DNA of 64,000 nucleotides, taken from contig VCJN01001349.1 of assembly GCA_006384855.1 (NCBI GenBank), positions 1 through 64,000 on the forward strand, given 5' to 3'. Positions 13,773 through 63,468 of this stretch are shown piece by piece. A model generated the notes under the pieces. The model made no database searches. It was not told the origin of the DNA and worked only from the letters and a program-made list of their open reading frames with translations. Each line of letters begins with the position of its first letter. Position 1 is the stretch's first letter. Both the position numbers and the translations under genes were made by a program. The stretch comes from Tetraselmis striata. Taxonomy: Eukaryota; Chlorophyta; Chlorodendrophyceae; Chlorodendrales; Chlorodendraceae.

Positions 13773-14066
13773 CCAGTATTACAGGTACGAGCAGGTACGA
13801 GCAGGTACGAGCGTACCGGTTGATTTTTTTATTTATACCCCTAGCAACCTAGCCTTGAAACACTGATGCCTGGCCTAGCGGTTGCTACTCGTAACACCAA
13901 GCGCGGTCCACCACTCTGAGCCCGAGACCGATCGCTCCCCGCACCACGCTCCCCGGCGGCCGCACTGCCCGGCGGCCAAGCCTCTGCGAAGTTGAACTCC
14001 ACCCCTGGCCTGCGATGCTGGCCCCGCGCGGGGTTGCCAGCGGGCTGCGCCCCCCGCAGCGGGGCC

Positions 14067-22954: not shown

Positions 22955-23872
22955 CTAATGACTGTCAGGCAGGTCCCCAGGGTCGCCCCAGAAGCGAAAG
23001 TAGGCGCGCCACTCGTTGAAGCGGCGCTGTGTCATCAGCGCAGCGAAGCCATAGCGGGTAGGCATCGCCGTGATGGAGGGCACTGCAGGGTTGTCCCACA
23101 GCTCCTCCAGCGACACCGTCGAGTGAAGCGTCATCGCGAGTAGAACCGCCAGAAAGACCTTGAACTCCGCCAGGGAGAAGGGGACGACACTGCTCCCCCC
23201 CTTCTCGGTGTGGCGGCGCTGGTTCATGGCATCGACGGCGCGCGACATCGCGCTGAGGGGGAACCACTGCCAGAAGTGCCATGCCACGCCCGCCTGCGCC
23301 GCCTCACTGTGGTTGCGGCGGTAGTGGCCGGAACGTGGGGGGTACGCTCTGGCCTGCTCACGCTGACAGCGGTAGCAAGAGGCGGGTTCCCAGTCAGGCG
23401 GCGGAAGCTCGGTGGGGGTGGGGCGAGGGGTTGGTGCCGCGGGATATTCGTCGGGTTCGGCGGAGTCACCAGCGGGCTCGGCATCGGCGTCCGCAAACGC
23501 ATCCAGCAGCTGCTGGTTGGCCGCCTGCACCTCCTCCAAGTCAACGGTGGTCGGACCCACCCGCCTGTGCTCCGCGGGGGCCGCTGCTGGGGCGGGGGGG
23601 ACGAGGGCGGCAGCCTTGAGGCTGACCTCACGCTCTATCTCAGGGTGATCTTTGGCGAAAGTGACGCGATGCCACGCGCCAGAGTGGCCACAGACGACGC
23701 CGCGCAGCGTGACACCCGCCACGGGCTCCCCTGGGTGGGCAGCAACCCATACCTTCTTGGCGGCGTCGGTTATATCACCGAAACGGACAGTAATGGCCGT
23801 TCCGAGGGGCAGCCGCATGGTGGGCAGGTGGTGGTGGTGGCGGCGGCGGAGCCCGCGATCTGCTGGGCCCAT
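22955..23872 (-). pseudogene. piggyBac-like transposase, N-terminal domain
   Basis: An acidic/proline linker is followed by FSLAEFKVFLAVLLAMTLHS, then PTRYGFAALMTQRRFNEW and AYFRFWGD, the arrangement at the start of the DDE_Tnp_1_7 (piggyBac) domain, where a helical block precedes MSRxRFxxIxxxLhF. The frame stops within this domain, before the catalytic residues. The first 150 residues are low-complexity and typical of algal transposase leaders. Confidence 0.72.
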
Positions 23873-32903: not shown

Positions 32904-33025
32904 GTGAATTACAAAAAGGGCAGTTCCCGAGAATTAGAAAATCAACACAGCAAGCCGCCTAAAAGCGGCCCGCATCCCGCATAAGGCGGGATGGATGAGT
33001 GATGTGCACACGGTTCAGAGTCCGG
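32904..33025 (-). repeat. 3' tail of the full-length non-LTR element
   Basis: Shared almost base for base with 13647-13772. On the element strand it contains GCGGGATGCGGGCCGCTTTT, with an inverted repeat (AAGCGGC / GCCGCTT) that may fold into the stem recognised by the RT, and ends TTTTTGTAATTCAC. Confidence 0.85.
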
Positions 33026-36000: not shown

Positions 36001-37323
36001 CGCAAAGAGATCGGCGTCCGTCCGACGCTGGCGGGCATGTCCGGCGTAGAACGCCTCAGTGCGCGCGTCGTCCCATGAGCGCACGAGTTCGGTCGTGCGC
36101 CTCTCCGCGAAAGCGCGGAAGCGCCACGCCAAGGCTTGCAGCCGCCGCCGTCCGCCTCGGCTCGGGGCCCTAAGCAACAATTGTGGCAACATGTACTTCC
36201 ACTTAAGCGCCCTATCCAACACCACGGGGTCATTGGCCTCCATCGCCGCCACCACCCGCTCATTCACGCAGCGTTGTGCCTCTGCCCACGCTTCTTGGAA
36301 GTCAATCGGCACCGCCGTCTCCATGGACATCTCCGCCGGCATGTGCACCATGTCCACGTCGGAGAGGTGGTCCACCGCGCCCCACCCCACCCCGTCGCCG
36401 GTTGGAGATGGGCGAGTAGGGGGGGGCGGATACCGAGCCCGTGAGGCCTGGCTGCCGGGGTGGCCGGCCGGTGCACCCACCTCTGGCGGCGTGGGGGCAA
36501 CAACCGGGGGCGCTGCGACGCCCCGGAACGCAGCGACGGACGGCAGTGCGGGCGACGGCAGCACCGACGATTGTCCGCCTCCACCGGCGCGGCGCGCCCC
36601 CCGACGGCGGTGCCGCTCGGCCAACACGGCGCGCGCCTTGGCTAGCCACGCGGCGGCGACCTCGGTGAAAGCCAGCACATCGGCCGGGTGGTGCCTGACG
36701 CGGGCGGGCTGGAGCGACCTGGCTGCGGCGTCAATCCTCGGCGCCCACGCGGCGCCCGCGGCGACACCAGCGACTGAAAGCGCGTCGGCGACTGTCCAAG
36801 ACGCTGCCGGTGCTACGCCCCGCCGCGCCGGCCCGCTGTCGTGTAGCCTGGAATGCAGGCGGGCGAGAGCATCGAGGCCGGTGAGCGCTAGGCCGCGGTT
36901 GCCGCCGCGCGGCCGCGGCTGGGGCCGCTCGGAGACTTCCTGGCCGGTCGGAGCGCCATCGTGATCGCGCTGTGACGCGCCGGGCCCCGAAATACTGCTG
37001 AAAGTACTGCGGCGAGGCGACGACACAGGCGAGGCAGCGCGCGCGCTGGTCGTACCTGCCGCGCCCGTCGCGGACTCGGGACTCGACGACCGGCTCACCG
37101 CCTGGGCGTACGTGGGAGCCGGCGGGACGGCAGTCGCGGGCGGGCTCGGCCTTGGCTGGGTGGCGTCGGGTGCACTGGCGGTGGACGGTGTTGCCGCGGT
37201 CGACGCTCCCGCCGCACGCGATGCGCCGGGGCTGCCTGATATACTGGACGATGTACTGGGGGGCGGCGGCGACCCGGGGTCAACGGCGCGTTCTGCCGCA
37301 CCATCGGCGGAAGGCGCAGACAT
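32959..37323 (-). CDS. Retrotransposon polyprotein: RT plus zinc finger and restriction-like endonuclease
   Basis: About 1454 residues from the ATG at 37323 (the frame is open to 37446 but that part lies beyond the element). The N-terminal 300 residues are Pro/Ser/Ala-rich. RT motifs: AAGPSGMRNEYLRCL (about residue 525), ARLVAPVKKLG, VHTDLRNAYNEAWRR (motif A), GVQQGAPLATTSF (motif B), FNADDGILVG (motif C, about 753). Downstream is CLAPVVGCQIILPSTEH with DLYGDAL and HWRVQHDAIADAF, a CCHH-type finger of RLE-class non-LTR elements. At about 1265-1280 comes TLLEFKTMRYG, whose ExK suggests a PD-(D/E)XK endonuclease, so target cleavage is probably by a C-terminal restriction-like nuclease rather than an APE nuclease. 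No stop or frameshift. Confidence 0.9.
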   Translation of the reverse strand: MSAPSADGAAERAVDPGSPPPPSTSSSISGSPGASRAAGASTAATPSTASAPDATQPRPSPPATAVPPAPTYAQAVSRSSSPESATGAAGTTSARAASPVSSPRRSTFSSISGPGASQRDHDGAPTGQEVSERPQPRPRGGNRGLALTGLDALARLHSRLHDSGPARRGVAPAASWTVADALSVAGVAAGAAWAPRIDAAARSLQPARVRHHPADVLAFTEVAAAWLAKARAVLAERHRRRGARRAGGGGQSSVLPSPALPSVAAFRGVAAPPVVAPTPPEVGAPAGHPGSQASRARYPPPPTRPSPTGDGVGWGAVDHLSDVDMVHMPAEMSMETAVPIDFQEAWAEAQRCVNERVVAAMEANDPVVLDRALKWKYMLPQLLLRAPSRGGRRRLQALAWRFRAFAERRTTELVRSWDDARTEAFYAGHARQRRTDADLFAALLVGTADTVVALVEDGELSRAAGRLSSKGMGDLSDPAILAQLRDKHPSRSHPIPDAAYAIPVDEAALTVDMRVPYQQLKQHVAAGPSGMRNEYLRCLVGEYAPASGPAAVRAMSEVASMYLQGRLPGWFNRLFASARLVAPVKKLGEGRAPDVRPVAVGEAERRAAERAVVDNMKEAYVSVLAPSQLGVGIPAGDSVLIHGVRLIAEKLGPRAVIVHTDLRNAYNEAWRRTIIQRHIDCSPLHPVIPALLASLSTDSYLVVDDRSAPLRSEDGVQQGAPLATTSFCVAIHPEVQQCDTTLEVNDGAARFNADDGILVGLPEHVWPALHAFRTSIKASVGLEVRFDKMQAYNADMEAARREAPADIEWPELDGHHGIAVLNVPLGAPEYVQAYMRGKAEELREEMDASLSKLLSAKPSRRYTHALHHHAWALLKHCMQHKAGYWLRNCLPSEVEAFAEAVDATILAAVERVLGVSFDPSTYGTDTNPVVTDFLAELLHDPDPMAAEVATLSEDAVAMARSRLHLPTRLKGAGIRRMATVRDAAFIGCMNAILPRFLTRNSGTNTPTPGFFDPQLGSVLCRGSFNANSSARQYDHFLNDAHGSDSYAAEMREAWGRLQAATAGHLGDADARQMEREVEAASGSQKELTAFLDQANNSRLRNEVCALPATCRERILFNQLDAASGMWTVAIPTARTAMTPHELREVAAGYFFLPSPCLAPVVGCQIILPSTEHNPVIVDLYGDALMNLPAPGDAHWRVQHDAIADAFRDHCVHDLGIAVRREVDDLFQQAVPLGNTVPRDELKDLVPDAELSLPAFNVVTGSYDPRSLKSTLLEFKTMRYGVKYTSVPRATAVDRFERSLLGDIQRGLAARDAAWHNTEPGQKGPLRDILDMSEYTGMVFGTVGEVSKGVHRTVRGIACLAADQGALSSRGTRCITRAHQEALLARDFLGVLSLVAARERARCLIRRRRFVSHPVAEAAQHVRGSPTHTRARVARTLNRVHITHPSRLMRDAGRF

Positions 37324-37835
37324 CGCGCGGCGCCCCGCCGGATACAAGCGACCCGCCACAGCCCGGGCATAACGGTGACGTCGCGTGGGAGGGGGTTGAG
37401 GGCATCGGAGCGGTCTGGTAATGTGTGTGCTATCGTCGTCACTCACGGGCTCGGTCTGTGATCAATTGCGATTTTTAGTAAGGATTATCACCTCGACATG
37501 CGCTGAGACTAATTAGTACTGTAGTGGGGACGAGGAAGGCGGAATATTACTAATATTATGTAGTATATTGATTGACTATTACAATCCGCCCTATAAAAAT
37601 GATATGAAAATCACATGAAAATGACAAAATGCTCAAATTATTTTTTGTTACCCTGTAGCGCTAGCAGAGAAACGACGAACTAGCTGCAGAAGGCAATATC
37701 AGGAAATCACCAGAAAAGGACAATCGGAATTCGGAAAGGTCCTCTACAGCAACTGCGAGGTGGAAGCAGTAGCAGGAGAAGATGCAGAATGGGCACGAGC
37801 GAAGGTCTTTTAGGCGAGAAGTTTCCGGTTTGTTT

Positions 37836-40185: not shown

Positions 40186-41712
40186 CTACACCTCGGCAAC
40201 CTGCTTCTTCGCATTCTTGCGGCGTTCGTTGTGGCGCTTCAGCTCTGCCTTGCAGCTCCGTCTCCCTGCGTCGAATTCCTCGACGGGGTGAACCCATGAG
40301 CACAGCTGGCAGTACTTCACCTTGCGATCATTCTTCACGCAGAATTCGGCGTTCCTGCAAGTGTCGCAAACCTTTCTGTTGCGCATGTAGCGTTTCATGT
40401 GCGCGGCATCGGTCTTGCGGTGACAGATATAGCATATGAAGACGGAGTCGTCGGCTGCCCCCACGTCCTTGGAGGGCCGGAGCTGGCTGGCTCGCTTTGG
40501 CTTGCTAGCCTTGGCACGGGTGACCTTTGCATTCGGGTAGCCTTCTACGTGGGTGCTCGAGGAAAGCTCCTCCTCCGAGATCTTCTCTGGCTTTGGCGGA
40601 GCCGACCCGCCAAAATACTTCTCAGCAAACGACGGGCTCAGAGCTTCCTCCAGGTCAGAGAATGCCGCAGCCTTCCCGACAAGGTGGCGCCTGAGGTTGA
40701 GCATGTCTGGGTTGCCCTGGAGGCTGCGGACGCCAGTGCGCTGCAGGGCAGTATCGACGTCCTCCCGCCCGCCGTGGCTAGCAGCCCACCTCCCGGCAGC
40801 GGGCCACTCGGACTGCGAAAACCCATGCTCGCCGTGCTCGTCGTGCATACCGGCATTCTGCGCATACTGTCCCCACCACAGCTGAAGGAGTGGGTTGGTT
40901 CCTGTGATCCCTGTAGTGTCGGATCGGCGAGAGTCAGCCGCGCTCCGAGAGCTCGGCCGGGCGTATTCGGGAACGGCGTCTTGCTGCTGATAACGGCTCC
41001 TCGGACCGCGCTGAGGGTCAAAGTGGTGGAGATACGCGCTGTGCTCGGGTGGCGCCTTGCCACTGCTGGCTTCCGGATTGCCACAGACATACAACCCACG
41101 GATTTCCGGGGCGTTTTCAAGCTGCGAGAAATCAGTCGGCTGGCCACGCAGGAACTCGGAGAATTCGTGTTGCCAGTCGGAGCCGTGCTGGTAAACGTTT
41201 GGAGGGGGGAAGCAGGAGAACGGCGGAACCTCCGCCACGGCGGCGCGTTCGAGGTTGTGCGCCGCCAGTATCGAGTGCCTGCGCTGGTTGTAATATTGCT
41301 GTCGCGTCTGGAAATCGTCCCACCCCCGTTCCTGGGCGGGGACAGGATCGAACCGGCCCTGGCGCAGCAGCGCGCTGGCTTCCTGGACGATGGCCGCGGA
41401 GGCTGGCGCGAAGGCGGCGAGTGGTCCCGAGTTGCGCCGGACCTGCGCGACACCAGCGCTTCTCGCCGATGGGTGGAAACGTCGCCTCTCCATCGCGGTC
41501 CAAGTCTCGGGGGGCGTTTGCCGGTATGTGGCAGGTTGAACTTGCATGCTTACGCCCGGAGAACAGGCGGTGCCTGGGCCCGCAGCCAGGCTTGAGTAGT
41601 TGTCGGTAGACATGCTGACTGCCGACTGGAGAGCCGTGCTGCTCCCGCTCTCGTTGCTGGCGTACGCGTGCCCTGGCCCACAAGGAGAAGCGAAGACCAC
41701 GACCTGCGGCAT
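40186..41712 (-). CDS. SBP-box transcription factor
   Basis: An uninterrupted minus-strand ORF; the ATG at 41712 gives 508 residues (an in-frame ATG at 41613 is an alternative). Residues about 425-500 form an SBP-type DNA-binding domain. The second finger is a perfect CX2CX3HX11C (YCQLCSWVHPVEEFDAGRRSC), followed by the basic RHNERRKNAKK that serves as nuclear-localisation signal in the family. The first finger is a variant (CYIC ... KVCDTC) instead of CX4C...CX2H. SBP proteins bind GTAC-core promoter motifs and are restricted to green plants and algae. The N-terminal 400 residues are Gln/Ser/Pro/Ala-rich and disordered, as in activation regions. No intron is needed, but introns in the N-terminal part cannot be excluded. 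This is the clearest host gene in the window. Confidence 0.85.
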   Translation of the reverse strand: MPQVVVFASPCGPGHAYASNESGSSTALQSAVSMSTDNYSSLAAGPGTACSPGVSMQVQPATYRQTPPETWTAMERRRFHPSARSAGVAQVRRNSGPLAAFAPASAAIVQEASALLRQGRFDPVPAQERGWDDFQTRQQYYNQRRHSILAAHNLERAAVAEVPPFSCFPPPNVYQHGSDWQHEFSEFLRGQPTDFSQLENAPEIRGLYVCGNPEASSGKAPPEHSAYLHHFDPQRGPRSRYQQQDAVPEYARPSSRSAADSRRSDTTGITGTNPLLQLWWGQYAQNAGMHDEHGEHGFSQSEWPAAGRWAASHGGREDVDTALQRTGVRSLQGNPDMLNLRRHLVGKAAAFSDLEEALSPSFAEKYFGGSAPPKPEKISEEELSSSTHVEGYPNAKVTRAKASKPKRASQLRPSKDVGAADDSVFICYICHRKTDAAHMKRYMRNRKVCDTCRNAEFCVKNDRKVKYCQLCSWVHPVEEFDAGRRSCKAELKRHNERRKNAKKQVAEV

Positions 41713-42360
41713 TGATTGCGCAGGTATGAGGACGACGCCCGCCTGGCTACCTTTGCCAGATAGAGAGCCGAGCGGCACTCGTCGCCGGCGGTGGTATGCA
41801 CCCCGCACCTCACCCGCTCAACAGGGCGCGCGATATAATGTTTATTTATGTGCCAGAGGTAGATACAAGCAGCATGAGATTTAGACTACGCAGCAAATTA
41901 ATACTGACCAATGTTTCGCGCAAGTGACCATACTTGCCACGCAGAGCACGTCGGCAGGGAAAGATCGAGCTGATATAGCTTGGGAGAGCAGGGAGTATAC
42001 TTGGATACTTCGATGTCGCTGCTACGGTGATGGCTGCTGTTGGAGGTATGTTTTTCGCCCGGATGAGGTCCACACTTCCAAATAAGCTCGCTCTCCGGAC
42101 GGTGTCGCCGAGACTGTTCTGAACGTGTTTATGGGTTTCTCAATGACTTGTGGAAACGTGTCGCTGAAGGTTCGAGCGGCGATATGATAGATGACTACCG
42201 GTAAGGATTACCTGTACCTGGGTATCACCGGTTGCTGTCCCGGAGCTTATTTGTATACGGGTACTCTTTTCGTCGCTAAAAGTATTCGCTGTAGTCGCTG
42301 TACCAATAAAAGTAGCAGTCGCTGTACCAATAGCGACAAGAAATCCAGTATCGCGTTATA
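41713..42360 (-). other. Upstream region of the SBP gene
   Basis: Holds the presumed promoter of the minus-strand SBP gene; I see no convincing TATA box. Near 42280-42340 short phrases AAAAGTA and CGCTGTACCAATA are doubled. It ends at TAAATAGCGACTA (42361-42373), the target duplication of the next retrotransposon. Confidence 0.4.
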
Positions 42361-45294: not shown

Positions 45295-48250
45295 GTGTGT
45301 TGCAGAGGTAGACGAGTTCCGCTGGCTCCGATCATCACAGTGGCCACCAACGATGCCGATGAACCAGTCGCCGCCCTCACTCCACTGGAGGACCGGTGCT
45401 CCAACCGACGTGCTTGCCAAGGGCCCCTCCCGTTTCACAGCCTCTCGCACCCGGAACGTAAGAACTTATGTGATCGTGCTGCGGAGGTGGCGGCGATGCG
45501 GCCGGAGCTATTGTACCTTGCGGCGGCCGGGGTGGTCGCCGCGCAGTTCAATGTCCGCATCGACGACTGCGACCGAAAGGCCATCAAAAACGCCGTCTCC
45601 CGCCGGGCTGCCGCTGCGAAGCAACTCGCCATCTTCAAAAAAAGGATGGAAGCCTACGTTCGACCTTCCCTCTTGCCTCAAGGTCAAGAGAACGTGCTCC
45701 CTTATTCTTCGACGGTCACCGTGCCTGAAGCTCCCAGTTCACGTTCACGTTCGGGGCGTCAACCGGAGCAAGTCGGGGCGGAAGAAGATGGACACCATCT
45801 CGGCAGCCGCTGACGCCACCACCAAGAGCTTCAAGGGGCCAGCTCCCATCAAGAGTATCAGTATCTCCTCAAGGAAGCCTGCAAGGTTGCGACGGGCAAC
45901 AAGCTTCAAAACGGCGTGTGGTATCAGACCGCTGGCAAGTCGATGCGAGCCGACCTGCACGACAAGGGCATCTCCACCGGCATGCGCACCTGGACCGGTC
46001 ACATCAAGAGAGCCATCGCGAATGACGACGTTCCACTCACTCCACAGAAGACATGAGGCATATTTGTGCATCGAGTCTTGAGGACCGCATTGCCACTGTC
46101 GTGAGGTGGTTCCGGGATCGGAAGCACTCCGTGTTTCCTGACGATGTTGAGGATTGGGCTAATCGAGAGATTGCTGGCACCATCTACGCTGACAACTTTC
46201 CTGATGGCAAGGTTACCGAGGGATGGTACCGCGGCTTCCTTCGCCGTCAAGGCATGCTCAATGGACACTAGAGACCCCTGGAGATGGCTCGACACGAGGG
46301 GCTGACGGAGCAAACCTGGTTGACTACTGGCTGAGATAGCCAAGGGCGTGCCTCGGAAGGCTGGTGTGGCAAGGGTCAATCCTGATTTCCAGCCCGATGT
46401 ACCATACAGTCAGGAACTCCTTATCACTCACCCTGAGCGCATCACCGGCTTCGATGAGACGAAGCTAGAGCTGAACTGCACCAAGGGCGGCAAGGGAAAG
46501 GGAGACATGATCGTTCGTGCCTCTCATGCAGATGATGGTGAAGGTGTTGTGCCGAAGACCACATCATGTGCGAGTGCAGCTTGTGGCCGCCGTGGAGATG
46601 GCAAGGCACTACCCCCCATGATTGTGTTCTCCTCTGGGGAGACATGGGACCCTGAGTGGTCCCCCCACATTGTGTCTGATGACCTGAAGGACAAGGATGG
46701 GAATCCTCTGCCATGGCGCTACCAATGCAATGACAAGGGATCGATGACTGAAGATTTCTGCGTCGCCTACATGCGAGACATTCTGTGGCCTGCCTTGGGA
46801 TGCCCACCACCACGTGACACCCACCCTGGCCAGCAAGGTGTTGTGATATGTGATGGTGTTGGTGTGCATGTTGGCATCTCTGTGTCGGAAGAGGCTATCA
46901 AGAGGGGGATCGAGATCAAGCTGCGGGTGCCAAACCTCAGCTCCAAGCTTCAGGGGGAGGACGTGATAAGCTTCCTCGTGCTGAAGGTATGTTGCAGTGT
47001 GCTTCCCATGTGCCCAAATGCATGCTATTATGCTATAATGTGCAATGCTATTGCATGCTGCCAATGTGTTTGCATGCAATGGGGCTGAGACAGTGCGTTG
47101 CAAATTTTATTTGTTACACAGAGTGAGTGGAGGCCAGCCAAGCTAGCCAAGTTCACTGAGCTGAACCGTGGCAGGCGGGAGGCAAGCCGCAAGATGCTGA
47201 CGCTAGGCTTTCAGCACCTGGTGTCTCTATTCTTTCCCTGCTGGAAGAATGCCTTCAGTGAGGAACGCAACATGAAGGGATGGGACCTAGAGGAATGCGT
47301 GGCATTCACCAAGTATCAGCTCTGGAAGTTCAGAGGCAAGCAAGGAACATCGTGGACAACACGCACCTCCAGCGGCAACCCGTCCTCGCGCGCGTCCCAA
47401 GTTTCCACGCGTGCTCCTGAATTGTCTACGGAGCAGCAGCAAACTTCATCAACACCCCCCTGATGTCAATCCCCTGAAGCTGCCAACTGATGTCAAGGAT
47501 GTGGTGGAGGCTGCCAAGACTGACATCGTGCCCCTGTCACGCGCTCTGCACGCTGACTTCGATGTTGGCGCTGAGCACGCACATGCTGCGAGCGACCAAC
47601 CGCAAGCACCAGCTGGGACAGACAGCGCCTCCCTGCAGTCTTTGTTGGCAGACAACCTGAAGCTCAGAGAGTGGGTCAAGGTGATGAGTGGTTACCTGGG
47701 AGCTGCATCAAGGGATGAGCAAGCAGACGCAACCCGTCAAGGAGGCCGCGTATCAGCGAAGGATATGTGGAACCAAGTTGGGAGTGCAGCTGGTGATGCA
47801 TCCATCGCCAACGCCCGTGCCAGAGCTGATGAGAGGAAGAGGAAGGCTGATTCAGCTTTCGCAAACAAGCAAGCAGCTGCGAGCAAGAGGCGGGAGACAA
47901 CAGCAAAGTCATGTGCAAACGGGGTGGAGCTGCTGAAGCGGATATGGCTGAGTGGCCCTGACTTCATAATTAAGCTGAAGGCCGCCGGGCTGCGCGACCT
48001 CATCCAAGCCTCCAACCCCAACATCAAAGAGCAAGCTGCAAAAAAGGCTGCACCTGCAAAGGAAAGGCTTGCATCCCTGGAAGCTGTCAAACTGCAGCTG
48101 CAATGTTTCCCACTAGGTACCCCACAACAAACATTTGCATTGCAATCACTTTCTGAGCTGACAAGTATGTCCATGATCTTGGCCAACAATAGCGTTACCA
48201 TCAGCGACGTGCCTGCCGTTGCACCCCATGCTGCATCTACGCCAATATAG
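45295..48250 (+). pseudogene. pogo/Tigger-like DDE transposase, decayed
   Basis: Plus-strand blocks in transposase order: an N-terminal region (45484-45813 and 45838-46053, ending ISTGMRTWTGHIKRA), a CENP-B-type HTH (46053-46271, WANREIAGTIYADN then VTEGWYRGFLRRQG) and a DDE_1 core (46348-46986). Core: ITGFDETKLELN (first Asp), VVICDGVGVHVG (second Asp), VPNLSSKLQGEDVISFLVLK (third Asp where pogo has LQPLDV). A phase-0 intron fits at 46987-47121 (GTATGT...ACACAG). The tail is SEWRPAKLAKFTELNRGRRE, then a Lys/Ala-rich end (47411-48250). Frame changes near 45813, 46054, 46272 and in a C-run at 47455 make it inactive. I found no TIRs. Confidence 0.8.
46987..47121 (+). other. Probable intron in the pogo-like transposase
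   Basis: CTGAAG|GTATGT at 46986/46987 and TTACACAG|AGTGAG at 47121/47122 give a 135-bp phase-0 intron that joins two frames both containing expected transposase sequence. Confidence 0.7.
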
Positions 48251-52063: not shown

Positions 52064-53220
52064 GGCAGGTCCGATTTAATTTTATGTTTTAGAACCCCCC
52101 CTCTGTCCCCCCCCCCCCCCCCCCCCCTCTACTTTATTTATGTTGATCTCATCGTACTTAGTATAACATGCCCAAAGTTGCATAATAGCTACCACTGGCA
52201 TGACTTTTTTATGGTTTCAATACATGGCTGTGTGGAGAAGGGTGTTCCCTGCCATATGCAAGCATAAAATGTAGAGGGGGTGGGGCACTTTTTGGAACCA
52301 TCACCATATTACAGTCAGCATCATGATAAACCAACCATACGGTGGCCTATCCACCCCTCCATGTAATGCTATGCTGCTGCCAAGCTGCTGTATGCCTTGC
52401 CTGGATATTAAAGACTTTCCCTGCGTTCTCTGGACGCTATCCACAGAACCAACAGCATAGTATATTCACGGCGGCGGTGCGGGGCTGAGCCCCCAGCCGC
52501 TCATGCACCGCTCCCAGCCGCCAAGTACTGCTTAAGTACGTGAACATAAAGTTGAGGCCACTTACAAAGTGACCCCCCCCCTCTATTTCTCCGGAAAGTA
52601 GAGTACTAAAACATAACATTAACATAACATAACTGCAGAGCGCCACAAAATCCAGAAGTATGACGAGGGTGTCCGAAACGCCGCCGGCATGCTTCGCTTT
52701 GTTCCTTTCGCCGTTTCCGAGTTTGGCTCGCTGGCCCCGCACGCTGAGGCTTTCCTGGTGGAGCTCGCGAAAACTAGCCACACACACACTGGCCTTTTCT
52801 GCGTGGCGCCGCCGTTTCTCCTTGCTCATCAACATGGCACATGCAGACAACGTTCTTGGCGGGGTCGCGGCCGCGCGTGCGGCACGTGATGGTGCTCATG
52901 CGCCTGCGTCGCGTCGCTCGTCGGCATGTGTTGCTACGACCCGGGTCATTGGCTGCAAGCGTCCTCGCCGCGGCTGATAGCCTACCCCGGGGCGGTGGTC
53001 CCTAGCAGCTAGGTTCCTGGCAGCTAAGCGACTTCGTGGTTCCCTTGGCTCCTCCTTGGTTCTTGGCTCCCTGTCCTCCTGCTCGACCTTGGTTTCAGGC
53101 TTATGTCTCTCTTTTGCTGGCAACCTTTCATAGTTGCTGTTAGTTCTTTTTGTAGTGCGCATTTGTGAAAGCTCTGATGTAAGATCTTTTTTTTAAACAT
53201 AACATTAAATCGGACCTGCC
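52064..53220. mobile_element. Harbinger-like MITE interrupted by a retrotransposon tail
   Basis: Left TIR 52064-52092 (GGCAGGTCCGATTTAAT then TTATGTTTTAG) matches the complement of the right end (53195-53220 plus the duplicated target at 52607-52622) over 29 bp with one mismatch. Flanking TTA on both sides (52061-52063, 53221-53223) is the 3-bp TSD of PIF/Harbinger elements. Without the nested insert the MITE is about 570 bp. No transposase inside. Confidence 0.82.
52623..53194 (+). mobile_element. 5'-truncated R2-like retrotransposon copy inside the MITE
   Basis: Perfect 14-bp TSD AAACATAACATTAA (52609-52622 and 53195-53208). From CTGCAGAGCGCC (52633) it is collinear with 43639-44200, with an internal deletion of about 21 bp (the QKIGHLLS codons) and TGTAAGATC plus a T-run at the 3' end. 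It encodes the last about 105 residues of the family's protein (52660-52977). Confidence 0.92.
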
Positions 53221-53223
53221 TTA

Positions 53224-54487
53224 CATAGGGTATGTTTGTTTGGCGGTACGGACATATAGGGTATGTACATTAGAACATATATGGAATGTATGTTTAATTC
53301 ACACGCGTGAAGGTACTGGTACCCGTACACGAGCGGTGAACAAAGTACAAAGCCACTGCTACTACCGCGACGTCCCTGTACTTCAATATTGTAATTACTG
53401 GTACCCGAGTACCAATACCTGTCGTCGTAGTTGGCGGCTTGCTGTGGGGATCTGCTTGTTAGTACGATACTGATGGTACCTGTACTGTACTGCTGTTAGG
53501 CGGTCGTGGATTTGTTTTACTGTGGATTTTGCCTGTTTGTAATTCGCACCAGTAGTAGCGATGTTCAAGGGTACCGGTATAAGGACAGGGCGGGCCGCTT
53601 CTAGGCGAATAGCTGTGTTGATCTTTTGGTACTGCGTTTAGCGGTACCCGGGTAGGTGGGTTTGTAAATGGCCTACTTCCTGTATTTTAAATTCATACCA
53701 GTACAGGGATTGTAATTGACACCAGTATACGAGTACATGGTACCAGTACCTGCGGTTTAAGGGTTTTTGTCCTTTTTGTAATTCACACCAGTACCTGCGG
53801 TGTAAGGATATGTACCATACAAATCCCCATGTGGGTACCCAGTGCCTGGTGCATTTATTTGCGCGGTATCCTTACATTTGGTGCTTCTACGCACGAATTG
53901 GATCCGGGTTCGATCCAAACTGTAAGGATGCCGCGCAAAACGCACCAGGCACTGGGTACCCACATGGGGATTTGTGTGGTACATATCCTTACATGCGGCC
54001 TCAGTGCCTGTCGTCGTAGTTGGCGGCTCGCTTTGCGGATCAGTTCGGTACTGATGGTACCTGAACTGTATGTACTGCTGTTAGCGGTCGTCGTGGATTT
54101 GCTACCCGGTGCCCCTGTGGATTTGGCCTGTTTGTAATTCGCACCAGTAGCAGTAGCTAGCTGCCGATTTCAGTGGGGCCAGTCCTGTCCCGGGGGCGAA
54201 AAAACAAAAGTAGCTGCCGCAGGGAACCGGTACCAGTTCAGGGTTTGTACTGGTTTTAATTCTGGGGAACTGCCCTTTTTGTAATTCACACCAGTACAGG
54301 GTTTGTAATGCGGGCCGCTTTTTTTTTTTCGCCCCTGGGACAGGACTGGCACCAGTGAAACCCTTGCAGCGTCTCTACGACGGCCGCTTTTAGGCTTGTT
54401 GATCTTTTGGTACTGCTTTTAGCGGTACCCGGGTAGATAATAAGTCTGACACGGCCTTCCTGTGTTTAAATTCATAACAGTACAGAG
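53224..54487. repeat. Nest of retroelement 3' tails and short repeats
   Basis: TGTAATTC(A/G)CACCAG occurs at about 53538, 53777, 54133 and 54279, each being the 3' terminus of the 33-37 kb family joined to an ACCAG target. LINE tail blocks (GGGACAGGACTGG...GACGGCCG) lie at 54325-54385 and, inverted, at 54176-54205. At 54265-54289 a minimal tail is flanked by ACCAGTTCAGGGTTTGTA and ACCAGTACAGGGTTTGTA, an 18-bp TSD with one mismatch. GGTACC-containing phrases are frequent. Confidence 0.75.
53801..53993. mobile_element. 193-bp foldback element with tRNA-like core
   Basis: Arms 53801-53876 and 53921-53993 are inverted copies of a 73-76-bp sequence (TGTAAGGATA ... TATCCTTACA), which is itself bounded by short inverted ends. 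The 44-bp core between them contains GGATCCGGGTTCGATCC, a perfect T-arm/box B. TGCGG flanks the whole unit (53796-53800, 53994-53998), a likely 5-bp TSD. A related unit lies at 61484-61803. Confidence 0.75.
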
Positions 54488-54991
54488 TGTGGGACCCAGG
54501 GTACTTCGGTACCCTGAATCCGCTTTTTCTCTCTGTGAAATCCGCATTTTTCCAGTGAACAGGTGGCTGCCGTACATGTGCCTAATTTGGACCGTATGGC
54601 AAAAGTACGACACCCAGTTGTTACCAAAGCATGGCACCTAGGCATCTTTGCGAGTTGCCCTTCTTAGACAGAGAGGTGTCGGTCCTAATTGACACCTAGC
54701 CGGCTGGTATAAATTGCCAGCCTCGGCTCCTTGTAATTCAATCAACTGCTCTTCCCAGAAATGTTCCGACGCACCCATTCTCTCGTGACAGTGCCACTCA
54801 GCCATCACCTCGGCGACAGCGACTACCTTTCGTCCATCGCCCACGGCTCACAGCAGCCCTTTGCCTTTCCAGCTTGCACCTTGCTTGCTGGCACTCGACG
54901 TGATTCGACGCGTGTACGCCCACTCTCGCCCACTCTCCTCCCATCAGTGACAGTGCCACTCAGCCATCACTTCAATAATCTCCCTCCGACA
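54488..54991 (+). repeat. 5' LTR of the Copia-MTase element
   Basis: Begins TGTGGGACCC and ends CCTCCGACA. TATAAA at 54708-54713 sits in the loop of an inverted repeat (GGCTGG / CCAGCC), and CTCCTTGTAATTC downstream provides a TGTAA polyadenylation-type signal. Confidence 0.93.
54708..54713 (+). promoter_or_regulatory. TATA box in the 5' LTR
   Basis: TATAAA flanked by GGCTGG and CCAGCC arms. In the 3' LTR the same site reads CATAAA. Confidence 0.55.
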
Positions 54992-55004
54992 GGTTTTTGG
55001 GCCC
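54992..55004 (+). promoter_or_regulatory. Primer-binding site, imperfect half-tRNA iMet type
   Basis: GGTTTTTGGGCCC directly after the LTR resembles GGTTATGGGCCC (complement of the initiator tRNA-Met anticodon arm) found perfectly in the 10.4-kb element. Confidence 0.6.
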
Positions 55005-55170
55005 TCTCCTTTGGCACGACGTCTTGACCCATGCCAGAGGCTTCAACCTACGTGTATCTCGACCCTCGACACCTTTCGACGATCGACGGCGCCGTGCGAC
55101 GAGTTTTTCTTCCCACCCGCCCTCCCCTACAGTTATACATCCTCTAGCACAAGTGCGCCATCCCTTCGCA

Positions 55171-57687
55171 ATGTCTACCAGCATCAACACCGGCATGATG
55201 AACACCCCCCTGGCCAATCTGGCTCGGCAGAGTGCGATCAAGACCGACCCTGGCGACGCCCCGCCACCGCCAGACTTCCGTGATGATACCAGTTATGACG
55301 ACACCTTCAGCATGGACGAGGCATCAGACAGTGACTCAGGTGACATCCAGCATATCAAGCCAGCTGCAGTGAAGCCAACACTCGACCTCAAGAACGTCCC
55401 CATCTGGGACAACACCATCTCTACGCGGGACAACGCTCAAGCAATCAAGATCGCTCTCGGCGGCGCCGGCTACTTGGACACCACCAAGGGCAAAGGCACC
55501 CGTCAAGAACAAATGATCCTTCTGGCAGCCTTGCGCCACGCAACGGCGCATTATCCCATGGCACTAACCATCGTCAACATCATCACCATGGACTCCGGGA
55601 AGTGTGGATATACAGCATGGAAGACTCTTCTTACTGAGTTTCAGGGCTCAGCCATGGAGGCGCGCAAGCGTCAGCGTCAGCGCGTCCGCGCGTGCCCACC
55701 AAACCTCAATTCCTACAACCCCAGGGACCCGCAGCACACCACCAGGCCCATCGTCGTCTGCAGACGGTGTGGCCGTCCGGGCCATACTCACCATCAGTGT
55801 GTGGCCATGCGCCATGCCAACGGCCTGCGTATCCTGGATGACACCACACCGACCAGCACCATGACCAACCCTCGCTATGACCGCCATCAGCGCGAACCTG
55901 CGGAGCGTCGCGTCAACACCGGCTATGGCCACAACCCGCGCGACAACTACCACCATCAAGAGCCGCCAGGTCAGCATTTCTACAACAACAACCGCAACAA
56001 TCAGGACAGGCTCCGGCGGCAGCAGCGTTGGACCAACCAGGGCGGCAACGACGGCAGGCGGCGTCATCAACAGCCAGTCGGCTTCGTCTCCCCGGCTGGA
56101 CATCATCACCCGGGGCATCAGCAGGCTGACGACAACTCCAACCAGCGGCCGACGGGACACCAACATGCCTACCCGTTCGTGGGTGTGTCCCCATCGGCAC
56201 AGCACCACAGCAGCATGCCCATCATGCTCACCTGCACCACCGCAGCCCCGGGAGGGGCGGCCGCCGGAGCACATGAGGGGGAGGGCGAGGACAGCGCGGA
56301 GGATGACTTACATGACCCCTGCCACGTCCCCTGCTCCGACTCTTATGACGTCTTCGAGTCCCCGTTCTCACACTCATGGCGTGTCCACCACTCCCGCCCT
56401 CACCCCGACGCCTTCCCGATCTTCGATACCCCCGACATTCCCCCCCGCTGGAACATTTACTCCCATCCCTACCCCCTCGATCCCCCCATCCACCTATTCG
56501 ACATCAATTCGCGACGTCCTCAACCCGTCCCCACCCCAGCCCCACCCCTATGCCTAACCTCACCCACATTCGTAGCCTCAGCGGCGTTGGCATCCCACAT
56601 CCTTCATGCGGAGCAAGGCGCGCTGCGTGGCGACCCGCCACCAACGCTACCGCTCCTCACCGTTGCGCCAATCCTCCCGCGGCCAACCTCTCTGGTCATC
56701 GACCATCTCTTTTCGCCATGCCATGGCCCATCGGCATCTGAAGTAGAGGCTCAAGTAGAATACGGCTTCACCATCCACAAGATCACCGGCGCCGACCCGT
56801 CGCCCGAGGCTCGTACTATGTGGACACATCGCCTACGTGCCATCGGCGACAAGTACCCGGGCCGTCTGCCCCCATCAGCTTTTCAGGACTGTCATGCCAG
56901 GGCCCCCATGGACGTCAACGACATCACCATCACGGCGCTAGAGGCCCTTCGCCCGGTCACCCTCATCGTGTCAGGCCCATCGTGTCAACCATGGTCACGT
57001 GCGGGTTCACGCCTTGGCTGGCATGACCATCGCTCTCGGGCCTTTGCTTCCGTCATCGGTTTCATCCGTTTCTACCTGACTACACAGCCCACACCGGTGC
57101 GCTACATCGTGGAGAATGTTCCAGGCGCGTTGGACTTCCCTGAGATACTCTCCTCACTTGGCACCGGCAACATCATGCGTGCGACCGCCTGCGGCTCGGC
57201 CGCTCACCGCGACACCCTCCTGTGGGCCAATATCGCTTTGCAAACAGACGTCCAGACCTACATCGACAACATCAACGCCATCGAGCTCACCGACCCCGGC
57301 CCCTGCGCGTGGGACCTCTGTCTCTCCGAATTCCCCCATTTTACTCCGGTCGTGACAACTGACTACTTTCCGAAGTTCGTCGACCGCCCCGGCTCATACG
57401 CTTTTCGCATGCAAACCAACGTTCAGCCGGGCACTGGCATGGTCTACGAACATGATGGCCCATGGTCCTGCGCAGACAACGGCAGAATGTGCGAACCCTG
57501 TGCAGCTCTAAGCGCTCGCGCCATGGGCTTTACCTTGGATGATCTGCCCACATCTCACCTTTCCGAGGCGACACTGCGCAAACTTCTCGGCGGTGTCATC
57601 GACCTCAACGTCATGCGCAACTACACCAAGGCTGTCTCGGGCGCCGCCCCTGCCCCAGTCGTCATCAATGTCTGCCACACGTCATAG
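55171..57687 (+). CDS. Gag-C5 cytosine DNA methyltransferase fusion
   Basis: 838 residues from the ATG at 55171, fully open. Residues 1-190 are Gag-like; CRRCGRPGHTHHQC (197-210) is a CX2CX4HX4C nucleocapsid knuckle. A His/Pro/Gln-rich linker follows. From about 510 a complete-looking C5-MTase: LFSPCHGPSASEV (motif I position), ADPSPEA (motif II), GPSCQPWSRAG with catalytic Cys605 (motif IV; PCQ is SCQ here), VENVPGALDFPE (motif VI, Glu648), AHRDTLLWANI (motif VIII), then a target-recognition-like region and MGFTLDDLP plus LLGGVIDLNV (motifs IX-X). Such enzymes methylate C5 of cytosine. The enzyme may methylate the element's own DNA or alter host silencing (inference). Pol begins by overlapping at 57669 in the +1 frame. 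Confidence 0.9.
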   Translation: MSTSINTGMMNTPLANLARQSAIKTDPGDAPPPPDFRDDTSYDDTFSMDEASDSDSGDIQHIKPAAVKPTLDLKNVPIWDNTISTRDNAQAIKIALGGAGYLDTTKGKGTRQEQMILLAALRHATAHYPMALTIVNIITMDSGKCGYTAWKTLLTEFQGSAMEARKRQRQRVRACPPNLNSYNPRDPQHTTRPIVVCRRCGRPGHTHHQCVAMRHANGLRILDDTTPTSTMTNPRYDRHQREPAERRVNTGYGHNPRDNYHHQEPPGQHFYNNNRNNQDRLRRQQRWTNQGGNDGRRRHQQPVGFVSPAGHHHPGHQQADDNSNQRPTGHQHAYPFVGVSPSAQHHSSMPIMLTCTTAAPGGAAAGAHEGEGEDSAEDDLHDPCHVPCSDSYDVFESPFSHSWRVHHSRPHPDAFPIFDTPDIPPRWNIYSHPYPLDPPIHLFDINSRRPQPVPTPAPPLCLTSPTFVASAALASHILHAEQGALRGDPPPTLPLLTVAPILPRPTSLVIDHLFSPCHGPSASEVEAQVEYGFTIHKITGADPSPEARTMWTHRLRAIGDKYPGRLPPSAFQDCHARAPMDVNDITITALEALRPVTLIVSGPSCQPWSRAGSRLGWHDHRSRAFASVIGFIRFYLTTQPTPVRYIVENVPGALDFPEILSSLGTGNIMRATACGSAAHRDTLLWANIALQTDVQTYIDNINAIELTDPGPCAWDLCLSEFPHFTPVVTTDYFPKFVDRPGSYAFRMQTNVQPGTGMVYEHDGPWSCADNGRMCEPCAALSARAMGFTLDDLPTSHLSEATLRKLLGGVIDLNVMRNYTKAVSGAAPAPVVINVCHTS

Positions 57688-58300
57688 CAATTGGCGCGAT
57701 ATATCACCATGCGCACCATGCATGGACGAGGCCGTCCGCGCCATCCATCAGCTTCATGCGGCAGTGCTCGGCATGGGTCACACCGTTCAACGCATACGTG
57801 CCGATCGCAGCGCAGTCTATACCGGCTCTCCTTTGCGTCAAGCATGTGCCGACCTCAACATCGCGCTGGAGTTTACCGCGTCCCACTCTCATCATCAGGC
57901 AGGCCTGGCGGAGCGCTCTTTCCGCACTATCGGTGAGTGTGCCCAAGCCATGCTCCTCCACGCCGGCCTCGACCGCACCTTTTGGGATTGGGCGTATCTT
58001 CACGCCGTCTATATCTCTGCAACCGCCAGTGGAGCTCGTCCGCCAACGCCATACCTTACACGCTGATGACCGGTCGCAAGCCCGACCTCGCCAACCTGCA
58101 TGTTTTCGGCTGCGTGGCCCGGGTCAACATACCTGTGACTATGCGGGCAGCCAAGGGCAAAATGACACCTAAATCTTGGCCGGGCATCTATGTTGGCCAC
58201 CATGAGGACTCAGCCAGCTACCGCATCTACAACCCTAGCTACCAGGCGCGAAACGGTGACACGCGATGTCATCTTTGACGAGGTGACACGACCCTTCTCC
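57669..58300 (+). pseudogene. Copia integrase remnant
   Basis: Starts in +1 frame at an ATG (57669) overlapping the MTase ORF by 19 nt. Reads RADRSAVYTGSPLRQACADL (second catalytic Asp in the RSDNGGEY position), then HHQAGLAERSFRTI (catalytic Glu), LHVFGCVARVNI and WPGIYVGHHEDSASYRIYNP (C-terminal part). The zinc-binding HHCC domain and first catalytic Asp are absent. A shift to frame 1 near 58030-58060 and back near 58240 breaks the ORF. Confidence 0.82.
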
Positions 58301-59545
58301 AGCACACCAGCACTCTCTATGCCTGTCTTCCAGTTTCCCGACGATGACCACCTGCTGGACGAGCCGCAGCCCTTGGACAAGGAGGAGGGGCCCCAAGCAC
58401 CGCCACCCATGCCACCATCAACGGCGCTTGCCTCAGCGCAGGGGGGTGGGGGGCACCTCCGCATCAAGACAAGCAATTTTCTTCAGCGTCATCAAGAGGG
58501 GGACGCCACAGCACTACCAACTCCTCACTCCAGTGAATCGGCGCACATTTCTTCCCCTTATGTCGACCTCGGCGACTACCACCCCACGCTAGTGGCATCC
58601 GCCATCGCGGAGGTTGTGCGCCCCTACCCTGCGCAAATGGCCCCCCTCGCCCTACCAGCACCCACTGTCCGCGTGTCCAAGGCGCCGCGCAACTACAAGG
58701 AGGCCATCTCCAGCAATCACTTCGATGATTGGAAACAGTCCATGGACCGAGATATCGCCTCTATCGCCAAGATGGAGACCTTAGTTTTGATCAGCATCCC
58801 TGAGCGTCGACATGACAACCCATCAGCAATCGTCATACATACGGCGTGGGCCTTCGCGGGAAAAGGACGGCAACCTCATCAAGCGCAAGGCCATAGTGGT
58901 CGTCCGCGGCGATCAACTTATTGCCGGCGAGAACTATGATGACACCAAGACCTATGCCCCAGTCGTCAGCTTCATCGCCTTGCGCACCACTATTGCTCTC
59001 GCAGTTCAACTCGACTGGGAGCTGTACCAGTTCGACGTCACCTGTGCTTTCCTCAACGCTGACCTCGATGAAGATGTCTACGTCTACCCCCCCCCTCCCC
59101 CCCGGCTACGGCCGCAAGGACCAGGCTTGAAAACTCGTTAAGGCACTCTATGGCCTGCCGCAGGCGCCCAAGGCATGGTTCCTGCGCTTTTCTTCCTTTC
59201 TCCGTGACTTCGGCTTCGTCAGCTCCGAGTGCGATCCAGGCGTATGGACGCTGCTCGCAGTCGATGGATCCCTACTGGCCATCCTATGCGTCTAGGTCGA
59301 TGACATCATGCCGGCTACCTCCCCATCGTCCGATATCCAAGAGCGTTTTCAGACTTCTCTCTTCGCTACGTTTAATGCGACCACTGACGGCCTATGCACC
59401 TGGCTCCTTGGGATGGCCATTGATTGCAAGCCGGGAGGTGTAATCCACCTCCATCAGGAGAAATACATCAACGACATCCTGACTACCTTCAACATGACGG
59501 CGTGCACGCCTCGCCGCCTGCCTTGCACGCCGGATACCAATTTTC
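58301..59545 (+). pseudogene. Copia reverse transcriptase, broken
   Basis: APRNYKEAISSNHFDDWKQS and MDRDIASIAKMETL start the domain. TYAPVVSFIALRTTIALAVQ, FDVTCAFLNADLDEDVYVYP, ALYGLPQAPKAWFLRF and FSVTSAS-equivalent segments follow in shifting frames (changes near 58855 and in the C-run at 59090-59102). The catalytic motif reads CV*VDDI: a TAG (59293-59295) replaces the Tyr codon of YVDD. After it come QERFQTSLFATFNA and LGMAIDCKPGGVIHLHQEKY. Not functional as it stands. Confidence 0.88.
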
Positions 59546-60300
59546 ATGACCCTACAGGCACGCACCAAACTCTTTCCCTATCCCAATCTTGTTGGCAGCC
59601 TTACCTGGTTGGCTGTCGCATCACGCCCGGACATTGCGTTCGTGGTCGGCCGACTGCGCGCCTACATGGCGTCCCCCACCGAGCGTCACTGGCATATCGC
59701 CGTATCGGTGCTGCGCTACCTCAAGGGCACCCCCAGCCATGGCCTCATTTTCCGGAAGCAACTAAACAACGAGGCGCCTGACTTCCTCTTCTTTGTGGAC
59801 GCTGATTGGGCAACCTTCATGCCCAAATACCGCTCCACTACCGGCTATCTTGCCCTGGTGCATGGTACCCCAGTCGCCTACCGCGCGCAAGTTCAGAAGA
59901 GCGTGGCCATGTCTACTGCCGAGTCGGAGTTCGTGGCGCTCTGCATGGCCTGCAACTGCATGGCCTTTATTCACGTTCTTCTGCGCCTGCTCAACCACCC
60001 TACCACTGACCCGGTACGGGTATGCGAGGACAATCAAGCGTGCATCGTTCAGGTGAAGCATGGTACGATTACAGGCGCGCAAAGCCACATTGACCTCAAG
60101 TTTCAGTGTGCAGCCCATCTCTACCAAGATGGAGTCATCGACATGCACTACACGCCTACCACAGACCAGCTCGCCGATTTCTTCACCAAGGCGCTACCGC
60201 TGACTACCTTTCTTCATTTCCGTGCTTACCCTGATGGGATCATCCGAGGAGCCTTGCGTTGCGCCTCTGCCACCATCAGTCTTGCGCCCGCGGGATTCCA
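59546..60300 (+). pseudogene. Copia RNase H, C-terminal domain
   Basis: Mostly open in one frame: YPNLVGSLTWLAVASRPDIA, VLRYLKGTPSHGLIF, FFVDADWATFMPKYRSTTGY (catalytic Asp), MSTAESEFVALCMAC (catalytic Glu), VCEDNQACIVQVKHG (catalytic Asp) and HIDLKFQ with TTDQLADFFTKALPL. This is the standard Copia end. It is out of frame with the RT part because of a shift near 59550. Confidence 0.88.
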
Positions 60301-60302
60301 CA

Positions 60303-60318
60303 GGATGAGGAGGGGTAG
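60303..60318 (+). promoter_or_regulatory. Polypurine tract of the Copia element
   Basis: GGATGAGGAGGGGTAG immediately precedes the TG of the 3' LTR. Confidence 0.65.
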
Positions 60319-60824
60319 TGTTGGACCCAGCGTACCCCGGTACCCCGAATCCGCATTTTCTCTCTGTGAAATCCGCATTTTTCCAGTGAACAGGTGGCTG
60401 CCGTACATGTGCCTAATTTGGACCGTATGGCAGAAGTACGACACCCAGTTGTTACCAAAGCATGGCACCTAGGCATCTTTGCGAGTTGCCCTTCTTAGAC
60501 ATAGAGGTTTCCGTCCTAATTGACACCTAGCCGGCTGGCATAAATTGCCAGCCTCGGCTCCTTGTAATTCCGTCAACTGCTCTTCCCAGAAATGTTCCGA
60601 CTCGCCCATTCTCTCTCGTGACAGTGCCACTCAGCCATCACCTCGGCGACAGCGACTACCTTTCGTCCATCGCCCACGGCTCACAGCAGCCCTTTGCCTT
60701 TCCAGCTTGCACCTTGCTTGCTGGCACTTGACGTGATTCGACGCGTGTACGCCCACTCTCGCCGACTCTCCTCCCATCAGTGACAGTGCCACTCAGCCAT
60801 CACTTCAATAATCTCCCTCCGACA
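60319..60824 (+). repeat. 3' LTR of the Copia-MTase element
   Basis: Begins TGTTGGACCC and ends CCTCCGACA. About 17 substitutions and one 2-bp indel relative to the 5' LTR, roughly 96.5% identity counted by eye. Confidence 0.93.
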
Positions 60825-60827
60825 GAG

Positions 60828-63287: not shown

Positions 63288-63452
63288 TAGTTGTATTACA
63301 TAAGGGCTTTCACAAAAGCGCACTACAAACAGAACTAACAACAGCTATGCAAGGTTGGTAGCAAAAGAGAGACATAAGCCTGAAACCAAGGTCGAGCAGG
63401 AGGACAGGGACCCAAGAACCAAGAAGGAGCCAGGGGAACCACGAAGTCACTT
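63288..63452 (-). mobile_element. 3'-tail copy of the R2-like non-LTR family
   Basis: 165 bp of 3' UTR in minus orientation, homologous to 44040-44200. Perfect 16-bp TSD AGGTACTCAGGATTGT (63272-63287 and 63453-63468). Confidence 0.93.
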
Positions 63453-63468
63453 AGGTACTCAGGATTGT

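Follow-up and report, generated by a model that had tools for sequence, protein, structure and literature searches.

What does a retrotransposon gain from carrying a cytosine DNA methyltransferase (DNMT)? Cytosine methylation usually silences retrotransposons, and an element that carries the enzyme itself is therefore paradoxical. The question is raised by a stretch of 64,000 nucleotides from Tetraselmis striata (contig VCJN01001349.1, positions 1 to 64,000; the whole stretch is called the window below), in which a sequence-only reading had described a Copia element with a Gag fused to an intact C5 cytosine methyltransferase and had guessed, correctly, that the host is a chlorophyte. The element is a decayed copy of a Ty1/copia family of this alga, named F1 here. 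The explanation that we prefer, whose chances as a whole we regard as even, joins this decayed F1 copy to a retroelement-borne DNMT lineage that would move between superfamilies and to a packaged DNMT that would methylate the cDNA of its own element.

A decayed copy of a multicopy Copia family

Positions 54486-60825 of the window are a Ty1/copia element of 6.3 kb bounded by long terminal repeats (LTRs), which are 96.3% identical (17 mismatches over 509 alignment columns). A clear 5-bp target duplication was not found in the flanks of the two LTRs. The coordinates of its parts are collected in Table 1. As had been read from the sequence alone, one open frame joins a CCHC nucleocapsid knuckle to the C5-methyltransferase motifs I, IV, VI, VIII and X in the expected order, motif I having the form CxG. 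The expected match to the DNA_methylase profile PF00145 was found at residues 579-655 of the frame (E 4.3e-7, 30.1 bits vs a cut-off of 22). In the same Pfam scan the knuckle gave a sub-threshold zf-CCHC_3 match (E 0.011, residues 195-212), and the Gag, which has no Pfam match, was assigned by its position.

The element is an old, deletion-bearing copy of F1. It is called decayed because both Gag and pol have suffered deletions, pol is spread over three frames, and motif IV reads GPSCQ. About 86 Gag residues after position 55692 are gone, as estimated from the gap size relative to the full-length copy L041, and in a tblastn comparison with the L041 protein, residues 938-1187 of the full-length F1 protein have no match in the window copy. 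What remains of pol consists of six tblastn stretches over frames 1-3, where Pfam detects a weak rve match (E 0.073) and an RVT_2 match below its cut-off (E 5e-4). The window copy has lost the proline that precedes the catalytic Cys; of the 30 F1 loci, the 29 others all have PC(Q/E). Thus, the description of the methyltransferase as intact does not hold for this copy, and the short "Gag-DNMT" protein is a deletion remnant, since full-length copies hold the DNMT inside one Gag-Pol frame.

Genome searches were performed over the 224-Mb Tetraselmis striata assembly; 122-150 candidates were scored per search, so that all whole-genome locus counts are lower bounds. A query of 295 residues (window 56800-57684) found at least 29 further loci, one per contig, with 273-295 residues matched at 81-91% identity. 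Open frames of 2000 codons or more are present in at least five of the 30 F1 loci; the single frames of L041 and L042 comprise 2162 and 2130 codons, and the polyprotein is about 2050 aa long. Its order is Gag, CCHC, linker, DNMT, protease, integrase, reverse transcriptase (RT) and RNase H, with the DNMT between nucleocapsid and protease. Pfam recognised DNA_methylase (36.8 bits), gag_pre-integrs, SH3_retrovirus and RVT_2 (E 7e-44) in the L041 protein P0001, whereas rve, at 29.2 bits, narrowly misses its threshold of 32.6. Assignment by eye and position was used for Gag, protease and RNase H, for which Pfam gives no match in P0001. The RVT_2 domain of full-length relatives, together with the LTR pair, bears out the Copia assignment of the earlier reading. 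The LTRs of L041 are identical over 481 bp and the duplication atgtc stands on both sides, which identifies L041 as a recent insertion. The five database proteins closest to its DNMT (95-99% identity) carry JGI names of Tetstr1, and the genome abounds in chlorophyll a/b light-harvesting genes (63 matches), as suits T. striata, a chlorophyte of the Chlorodendrophyceae.

There are at least five DNMT-bearing Copia families, F1-F5, in the Tetraselmis striata genome. The domain order of F2 (L044), F3 (L045, L049, L050), F4 (L051) and F5 (L053) is that of F1; in L049, L050 and L051 it was read by eye only, and in L044, L045 and L053 also by Pfam. DNMT identity between the families is 30-53%. Searches with the F5 domain found at least 23 whole-domain loci with identities of 95-100%, besides a single one at 72%. 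With the F3 domain, at least 17 whole-domain loci were found at 91-100%, at least seven loci at 49-52%, including the F4 copy on contig C2193, and at least 18 at 34-36%, including the F2 copy on contig C1860. The F5 copy scores 18.0 bits against PF00145, below the cut-off, so a survey by Pfam alone overlooks this family.

These families coexist with a Copia element lacking the DNMT (L052, 1561 codons). The same frame length recurs many times among 150 RT matches, of which only L052 was read as DNMT-less. In an unrooted integrase and RT tree of six rows, L052 falls between the pair F1/F2 and the group F3-F5, and each of the three inner branches is starred; this placement would imply either DNMT loss in the L052 lineage or DNMT movement between Copia lineages.

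A LINE (long interspersed nuclear element) on contig C2687 (L076 and L046) also encodes a DNMT, together with endonuclease, RVT_1, PCIF1_WW and RNase H domains. Its frame is listed at 3505 codons, and at least four loci match it at 92-100%. Two methyltransferase-type domains, PCIF1-like and C5-DNMT, thus occur in one retroelement, and the relative P0016 adds a PHD finger. The PCIF1-like domain is of the mRNA cap adenosine methyltransferase family.

The methyltransferase domain and its relatives in other retroelements

The catalytic Cys is kept in all 30 F1 loci and motif VI reads ENV in 29 of them, the exception being EIV in L030. The motif X pattern is present in 27 of the 30; L030, one of the three misses, reads LLGGPIDLN. 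For motif VIII, the reading covered the window copy and the aligned family members.

A profile of eight element sequences compared with the PDB gave human DNMT3A as the best match (8e-17), followed by DNMT3C and DNMT3B; HhaI (3.6e-11), Dnmt2 (2.6e-8), DRM2 (0.002) and DNMT1 (0.6) ranked lower. The AlphaFold model of the P0006 domain, built with 30 sequences, has a predicted local distance difference test (pLDDT) score of 89.5 and a predicted template modelling (pTM) score of 0.88. Among the 50 PDB matches listed by Foldseek for this model, ranks 1-44 are DNMT3 structures and the 45th is Dnmt2. By profile and predicted fold, the element domain is most like DNMT3 among DNMT3, DNMT1, DNMT2, DRM and bacterial enzymes. 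DNMT3A and DNMT3B, the best PDB matches in both comparisons, nevertheless differ from it: they are cellular genes, share 15-19% identity with it in the listed fold alignments, and have FxG at motif I where the elements have CxG. According to the available text of PMC12344493, they also possess the extra chromatin domains PWWP and ADD.

Ratios of nonsynonymous to synonymous changes per site (dN/dS) were calculated for F1 loci against L041, and the comparisons are not independent because they all share this reference. For the DNMT the median is 0.21 (range 0.08-0.34; 27 of the 30 loci, those with at least five changes). The linker gives 0.19-0.93 and the protease region 0-0.41 (27 of the 30 loci with a defined ratio; the region is absent in the window copy, and two loci are without any change). 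At 19 of the 30 loci, L041's own included, the DNMT has no stop or gap relative to L041. Nonsynonymous changes per site are fewer than synonymous ones in six loci chosen from the 30 (Fisher p 4e-13 to 8e-4). These ratios indicate that the F1 DNMT domain is under purifying selection.

The decay of the window copy would suit a functionless passenger domain or a chimera of the assembly, and this is almost certainly wrong. The search for other copies that the earlier reading had suggested yielded 30 F1 loci on 30 contigs and at least five families with one domain order, and the nonsynonymous changes are the rarer ones per site, so that copy number and dN/dS together refute it. A one-off chimera or chance is ruled out in particular because each of the 29 further loci lies on its own contig.

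Similar domains were found among database proteins. Those of Ty3/gypsy type (P0014, P0015, P0085-P0090) have a PHD finger in all but P0085; P0017 and P0091, together with shorter proteins, form a second gypsy-type group, in which P0091 carries FGG at the place of motif I; and the LINE P0016 has a DNMT with PCIF1 and PHD domains. The DNMTs of P0014, P0015, P0085-P0090 and P0016 are 33-38% identical to the F1 domain and fall in the same clade, although their elements differ from F1 in having RVT_1 with an H2C2 integrase or, in the LINE, an endonuclease.

In a DNMT tree of 35 rows, 27 retroelement DNMTs form one clade (support 100/98), within which clades by element type can be distinguished: Copia (99/95), LINE (99/95), GypsyA (99/98) and GypsyB (100/98). 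Shorter proteins make up ten of the 12 GypsyB rows; among these ten, P0026 has gypsy RNase H domains, and the rest were labelled by us and by their place in the tree. The nesting is GypsyB, (LINE, (Copia, GypsyA)), where the fork joining LINE to Copia and GypsyA (94/89) is unstarred. In a tree without the bacterial-type rows each element group still occupies one side of a branch. Human DNMT3A, joined from pieces, is the only cellular eukaryotic reference in the tree and is flagged as a long branch. A single local capture common to the Copia and LINE elements of Tetraselmis was rejected (approximately unbiased test, p 0.0006), and a single clade of all Gypsy DNMTs was rejected only marginally (p 0.045). 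Capture of a bacterial Dcm was also rejected: five database DNMTs labelled "bact" and two other full-length Tetraselmis DNMTs lie outside the clade, and HhaI scores well below DNMT3A; the label is our own, only P0081 carrying a bacterial name.

Given the element-type clades and the rejected union of Tetraselmis Copia and LINE, the DNMT sorts by element type and not by host, which suggests that one retroelement-borne lineage probably passed between superfamilies. The independent capture supposed in the earlier reading has become doubtful, since the clade shared with Ty3/gypsy and LINE DNMTs from other sources suggests descent within retroelements and not a fresh capture of a chlorophyte gene. 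Judged from these sequence comparisons, the element DNMT most likely moved between superfamilies. To us it is somewhat more probable than not that a DNMT3-like methyltransferase now forms an independent, long-lived lineage of retrotransposon genes, preserved by selection and transferred among Ty1/copia, Ty3/gypsy (probably twice) and LINE elements; in Tetraselmis alone it would occupy at least five Copia families and, through a separate acquisition, a LINE.

The same topology could arise if each superfamily had taken up the domain independently from a single algal DNMT3-like gene, fast-evolving and now unsampled, with no transfer between elements. Topology alone does not tell whether modules were exchanged or one host gene lineage was captured repeatedly, and a host gene may sit among the shorter database matches. 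However, no stand-alone host gene was recognised among the database matches, the shorter of which were read for their neighbours in part; gypsy-type proteins and the LINE P0016 have a PHD finger beside the DNMT, as if cassettes travelled together, and the host-like T. striata loci L055, L056 and L059, which are absent from the tree, have other motif IV sequences. We regard repeated capture as possible but rather doubtful. If transfer between elements is the true reading of the clade, accessory methyltransferases circulate among unrelated retroelements as a shared tool and are not recaptured in each host. A DNMT of GypsyA type was not recognised in the T. striata genome search, the two best matches (L083, L084) being F2 Copia copies, and no database match bears a Symbiodinium- or Klebsormidium-like source name, many matches being without a source name.

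Retrotransposons with a DNMT are already known. De Mendoza et al. 2018 (PMC5890265) reported SymbioLINE, SymbioDIRS-Dnmt3 and KnitGypsy-Dnmt3; in the available text of that study, SymbioDIRS DNMTs methylate CG in yeast, and a Symbiodinium Copia is without any DNMT domain. KnitGypsy-Dnmt3 of Klebsormidium nitens is, like F1, an LTR retrotransposon with a DNMT3-type domain in its Pol polyprotein, several copies and purifying selection. Compared by description, it differs in its Ty3/gypsy domains, DIRS-like repeats and streptophyte host, whereas F1 is a Ty1/copia element of a chlorophyte with the DNMT between nucleocapsid and protease. SymbioDIRS-Dnmt3 and SymbioLINE-Dnmt resemble the present systems in having the DNMT in element coding regions, very many copies and mostly Ka/Ks under 0.2, but are described as DIRS and LINE elements of a dinoflagellate. 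Unlike SymbioLINE as described there, the Tetraselmis LINE carries its DNMT not in an ORF1 (first open reading frame) but downstream of RT, accompanied by a PCIF1-like domain. A 2025 paper (PMC12344493) cites the 2018 study for DNMT3 in "LTR Copia and DIRS" (Gypsy in the wording of that study itself) and mentions ChloroDNMTs in chlorophytes; DNMT3 was not found in MMETSP green algae according to the available text of PMC9998398. The literature search found no publication on the environmental DNMT proteins P0014-P0016 and P0085-P0090. In the literature, judged mostly by titles and the openings of abstracts, no report of a DNMT-bearing chlorophyte Copia or of a DNMT clade common to Copia, Gypsy and LINE was recognised. 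Both the Copia families of this chlorophyte and the clade across superfamilies appear to be new.

Possible function of the element-borne methyltransferase

A plausible function is putative methylation of the element's own cDNA. The position of the DNMT inside Gag-Pol suggests that it would be packaged in the virus-like particle as part of this polyprotein. It may then be cut out by the protease of the element and act on the double-stranded cDNA made by RT, and the new copy would reach the nucleus already carrying 5-methylcytosine. With this mark the cDNA could pass for host DNA or be shielded from DNA-damaging defences.

Several observations weigh against such a role. The SAM-binding motif I is CxG, not FxG, in all eight aligned element DNMTs that form the profile, and the DNMT-less L052 thrives in the same genome. 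Measured on one copy of each family and two of F1, the CpG observed/expected ratio is 0.82-0.98 in the five DNMT-bearing Copia families vs 0.80 in the DNMT-less Copia. The former not being below the latter, the CpG depletion that self-methylation would leave as a footprint was sought without success.

In seven chosen copies, C-to-T differences are 1.4-2.0x more frequent at CpG than CpH, an excess that agrees with methylation of genomic CpG by whatever enzyme. It would also fit methylated insertions if the element marked its own new copies to restrain its expression, to the benefit of the host. Host methylation, however, would give the same excess, and we consider self-limitation of this kind quite unlikely.

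A further point against cDNA methylation is a non-autonomous F1 derivative that has been amplified with the catalytic Glu, and mostly also the Cys, lost. In its representative L043 the LTRs are 99.6% identical (505 columns), with cccct as the target duplication, and a frame of 1236 codons encodes Gag plus an N-terminal DNMT half, with TPLQ at motif IV and QNC at motif VI. Six further loci of this type have open frames across the region with no stops (dN/dS 0.21-0.55 vs L043); the Glu of ENV is replaced by Gln in all six, and the Cys is lost in five and kept in L081. At least 46 loci match the 295-residue query only within residues 1-183, at 59-69% identity, like L043 (seven were read). Besides P0005, 11 database relatives that are shorter or divergent were read. 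Seven have lost the Glu (P0012, P0048, P0051, P0052, P0070, P0074, P0075), and three of these seven, P0051, P0052 and P0070, retain the Cys; ENV is kept in P0013 and P0045, and P0044 and P0056 were left undecided. Amplification without the catalytic residues means that DNMT activity is dispensable in cis; perhaps it is supplied to the derivative in trans. On the contig of the window, but beyond it, a partial DNMT match (G000:C1084:92474-92932, 68% over residues 1-153) has the size seen in this derivative.

The open frame of the derivative in 6/6 loci, the CxG motif and the missing CpG footprint would also agree with a domain that is no longer mainly a DNA methyltransferase and instead binds or methylates element RNA or is a structural part of the particle; RNA methylation was proposed for SymbioLINE in the available text of PMC5890265. 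Such a role is disfavoured by the retention of the catalytic Cys and of ENV (or EIV) across F1, and by a profile and fold nearest to DNMT3, whose members are DNA enzymes, while the RNA enzyme Dnmt2 scores lower. We consider an RNA or structural role unlikely. In one green alga, recently inserted copies with long open frames occur beside Copia controls without a DNMT and a derivative whose DNMT is naturally dead, and together they make the gain of a retrotransposon from its DNMT directly testable.

Other methyltransferase loci and features of the window

Several other DNMT loci of T. striata can be noted. A second mobile-looking DNMT is found in near-identical repeats of 2-4 kb (L001-L006, L008-L010) with an opposite-strand frame of up to 377 aa; its 325-aa protein in L002 is a full-length PF00145 protein (E 3e-45) outside the retroelement clade, and the repeats are possibly a virus-like or DNA element. 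L007 (G000:C2385, a 655-kb contig) has a 327-aa DNMT adjoining a frame that by eye resembles an RNA polymerase large subunit, and the region could be a giant-virus insertion. The 630-aa DNMT frame of L054 (G000:C2009) has a bacterial look, so contamination of the assembly is possible there. L055, L056 and L059 have their DNMT motifs distributed among several frames, as would be seen in host genes with introns, and these loci are candidates for the host's own methyltransferases. On viral contigs, 15 loci with local matches of 25-37% to the DNMT were found.

Table 1. Features of the window (nucleotide positions) and of the full-length F1 copy L041 (residues)
Feature	Position	Strand	Remarks
5' LTR	54486..54992	+	TG at 54488, CA at 54991; pairs with 3' LTR
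3' LTR	60317..60825	+	partner of 5' LTR
Open frame: truncated Gag, CCHC, linker and DNMT	55171..57687	+	838 aa
Gag N-terminal part	55171..55692	+	tblastn of L041 protein: matches residues 1-174 of full-length F1 protein
CCHC nucleocapsid knuckle CRRCGRPGHTHHQC	55759..55800	+	plain by eye; residues 195-212
Low-complexity linker, knuckle to DNMT	55801..56673	+	dN/dS 0.427, window copy vs L041
DNMT3-like C5-methyltransferase domain	56674..57645	+	Pfam for window copy; profile and predicted fold for full-length relatives
Motif I, CxG replacing FxG	56719-56727	+	
Motif IV, GPSCQPW	56974-56994	+	catalytic Cys codon 56983..56985
Motif VI, ENV	57112-57120	+	
Motif VIII, AHRD	57202-57213	+	
Motif X	57583-57609	+	
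Deletion junction	57688..57724	+	about 250 aa gone: protease, GAG-pre-integrase, first part of integrase core
Decayed pol: rest of integrase, RT, RNase H	57725..60305	+	shifting frames
L041 (protein P0001), Gag to DNMT	Gag start 111; CCHC 395; DNMT 702-1023		residues
L041 (P0001), protease to RNase H	protease motif LIDSGASS at 1050 (DSGAS 1052); GAG-pre-integrase; integrase; RT (YVDDI at 1823); RNase H		residues
Frame with five helicase-associated (HA) domains	13992-15383		
RVT_1 transposon remnant	20329-21399	-	
DDE_Tnp_1_7 transposon remnant	22955-23872	-	
Weak RVT_1, 1495-aa frame	32959-37446	-	below cut-off
Frame with SBP domain	40186-41808	-	
DDE_1 transposon remnant	46348-47088	+	

The remaining window frames in Table 1 include one with an SBP domain; SBP proteins are a transcription factor family of plants and green algae. 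The Copia element is flanked by inverted repeats of 159 nt (53024-53182 and 63296-63454), 92% complementary and 10.1 kb apart, which possibly belong to an older element that received the Copia insertion. Between them, repeats of 76 nt are located at 53918, 61480 and 61728.

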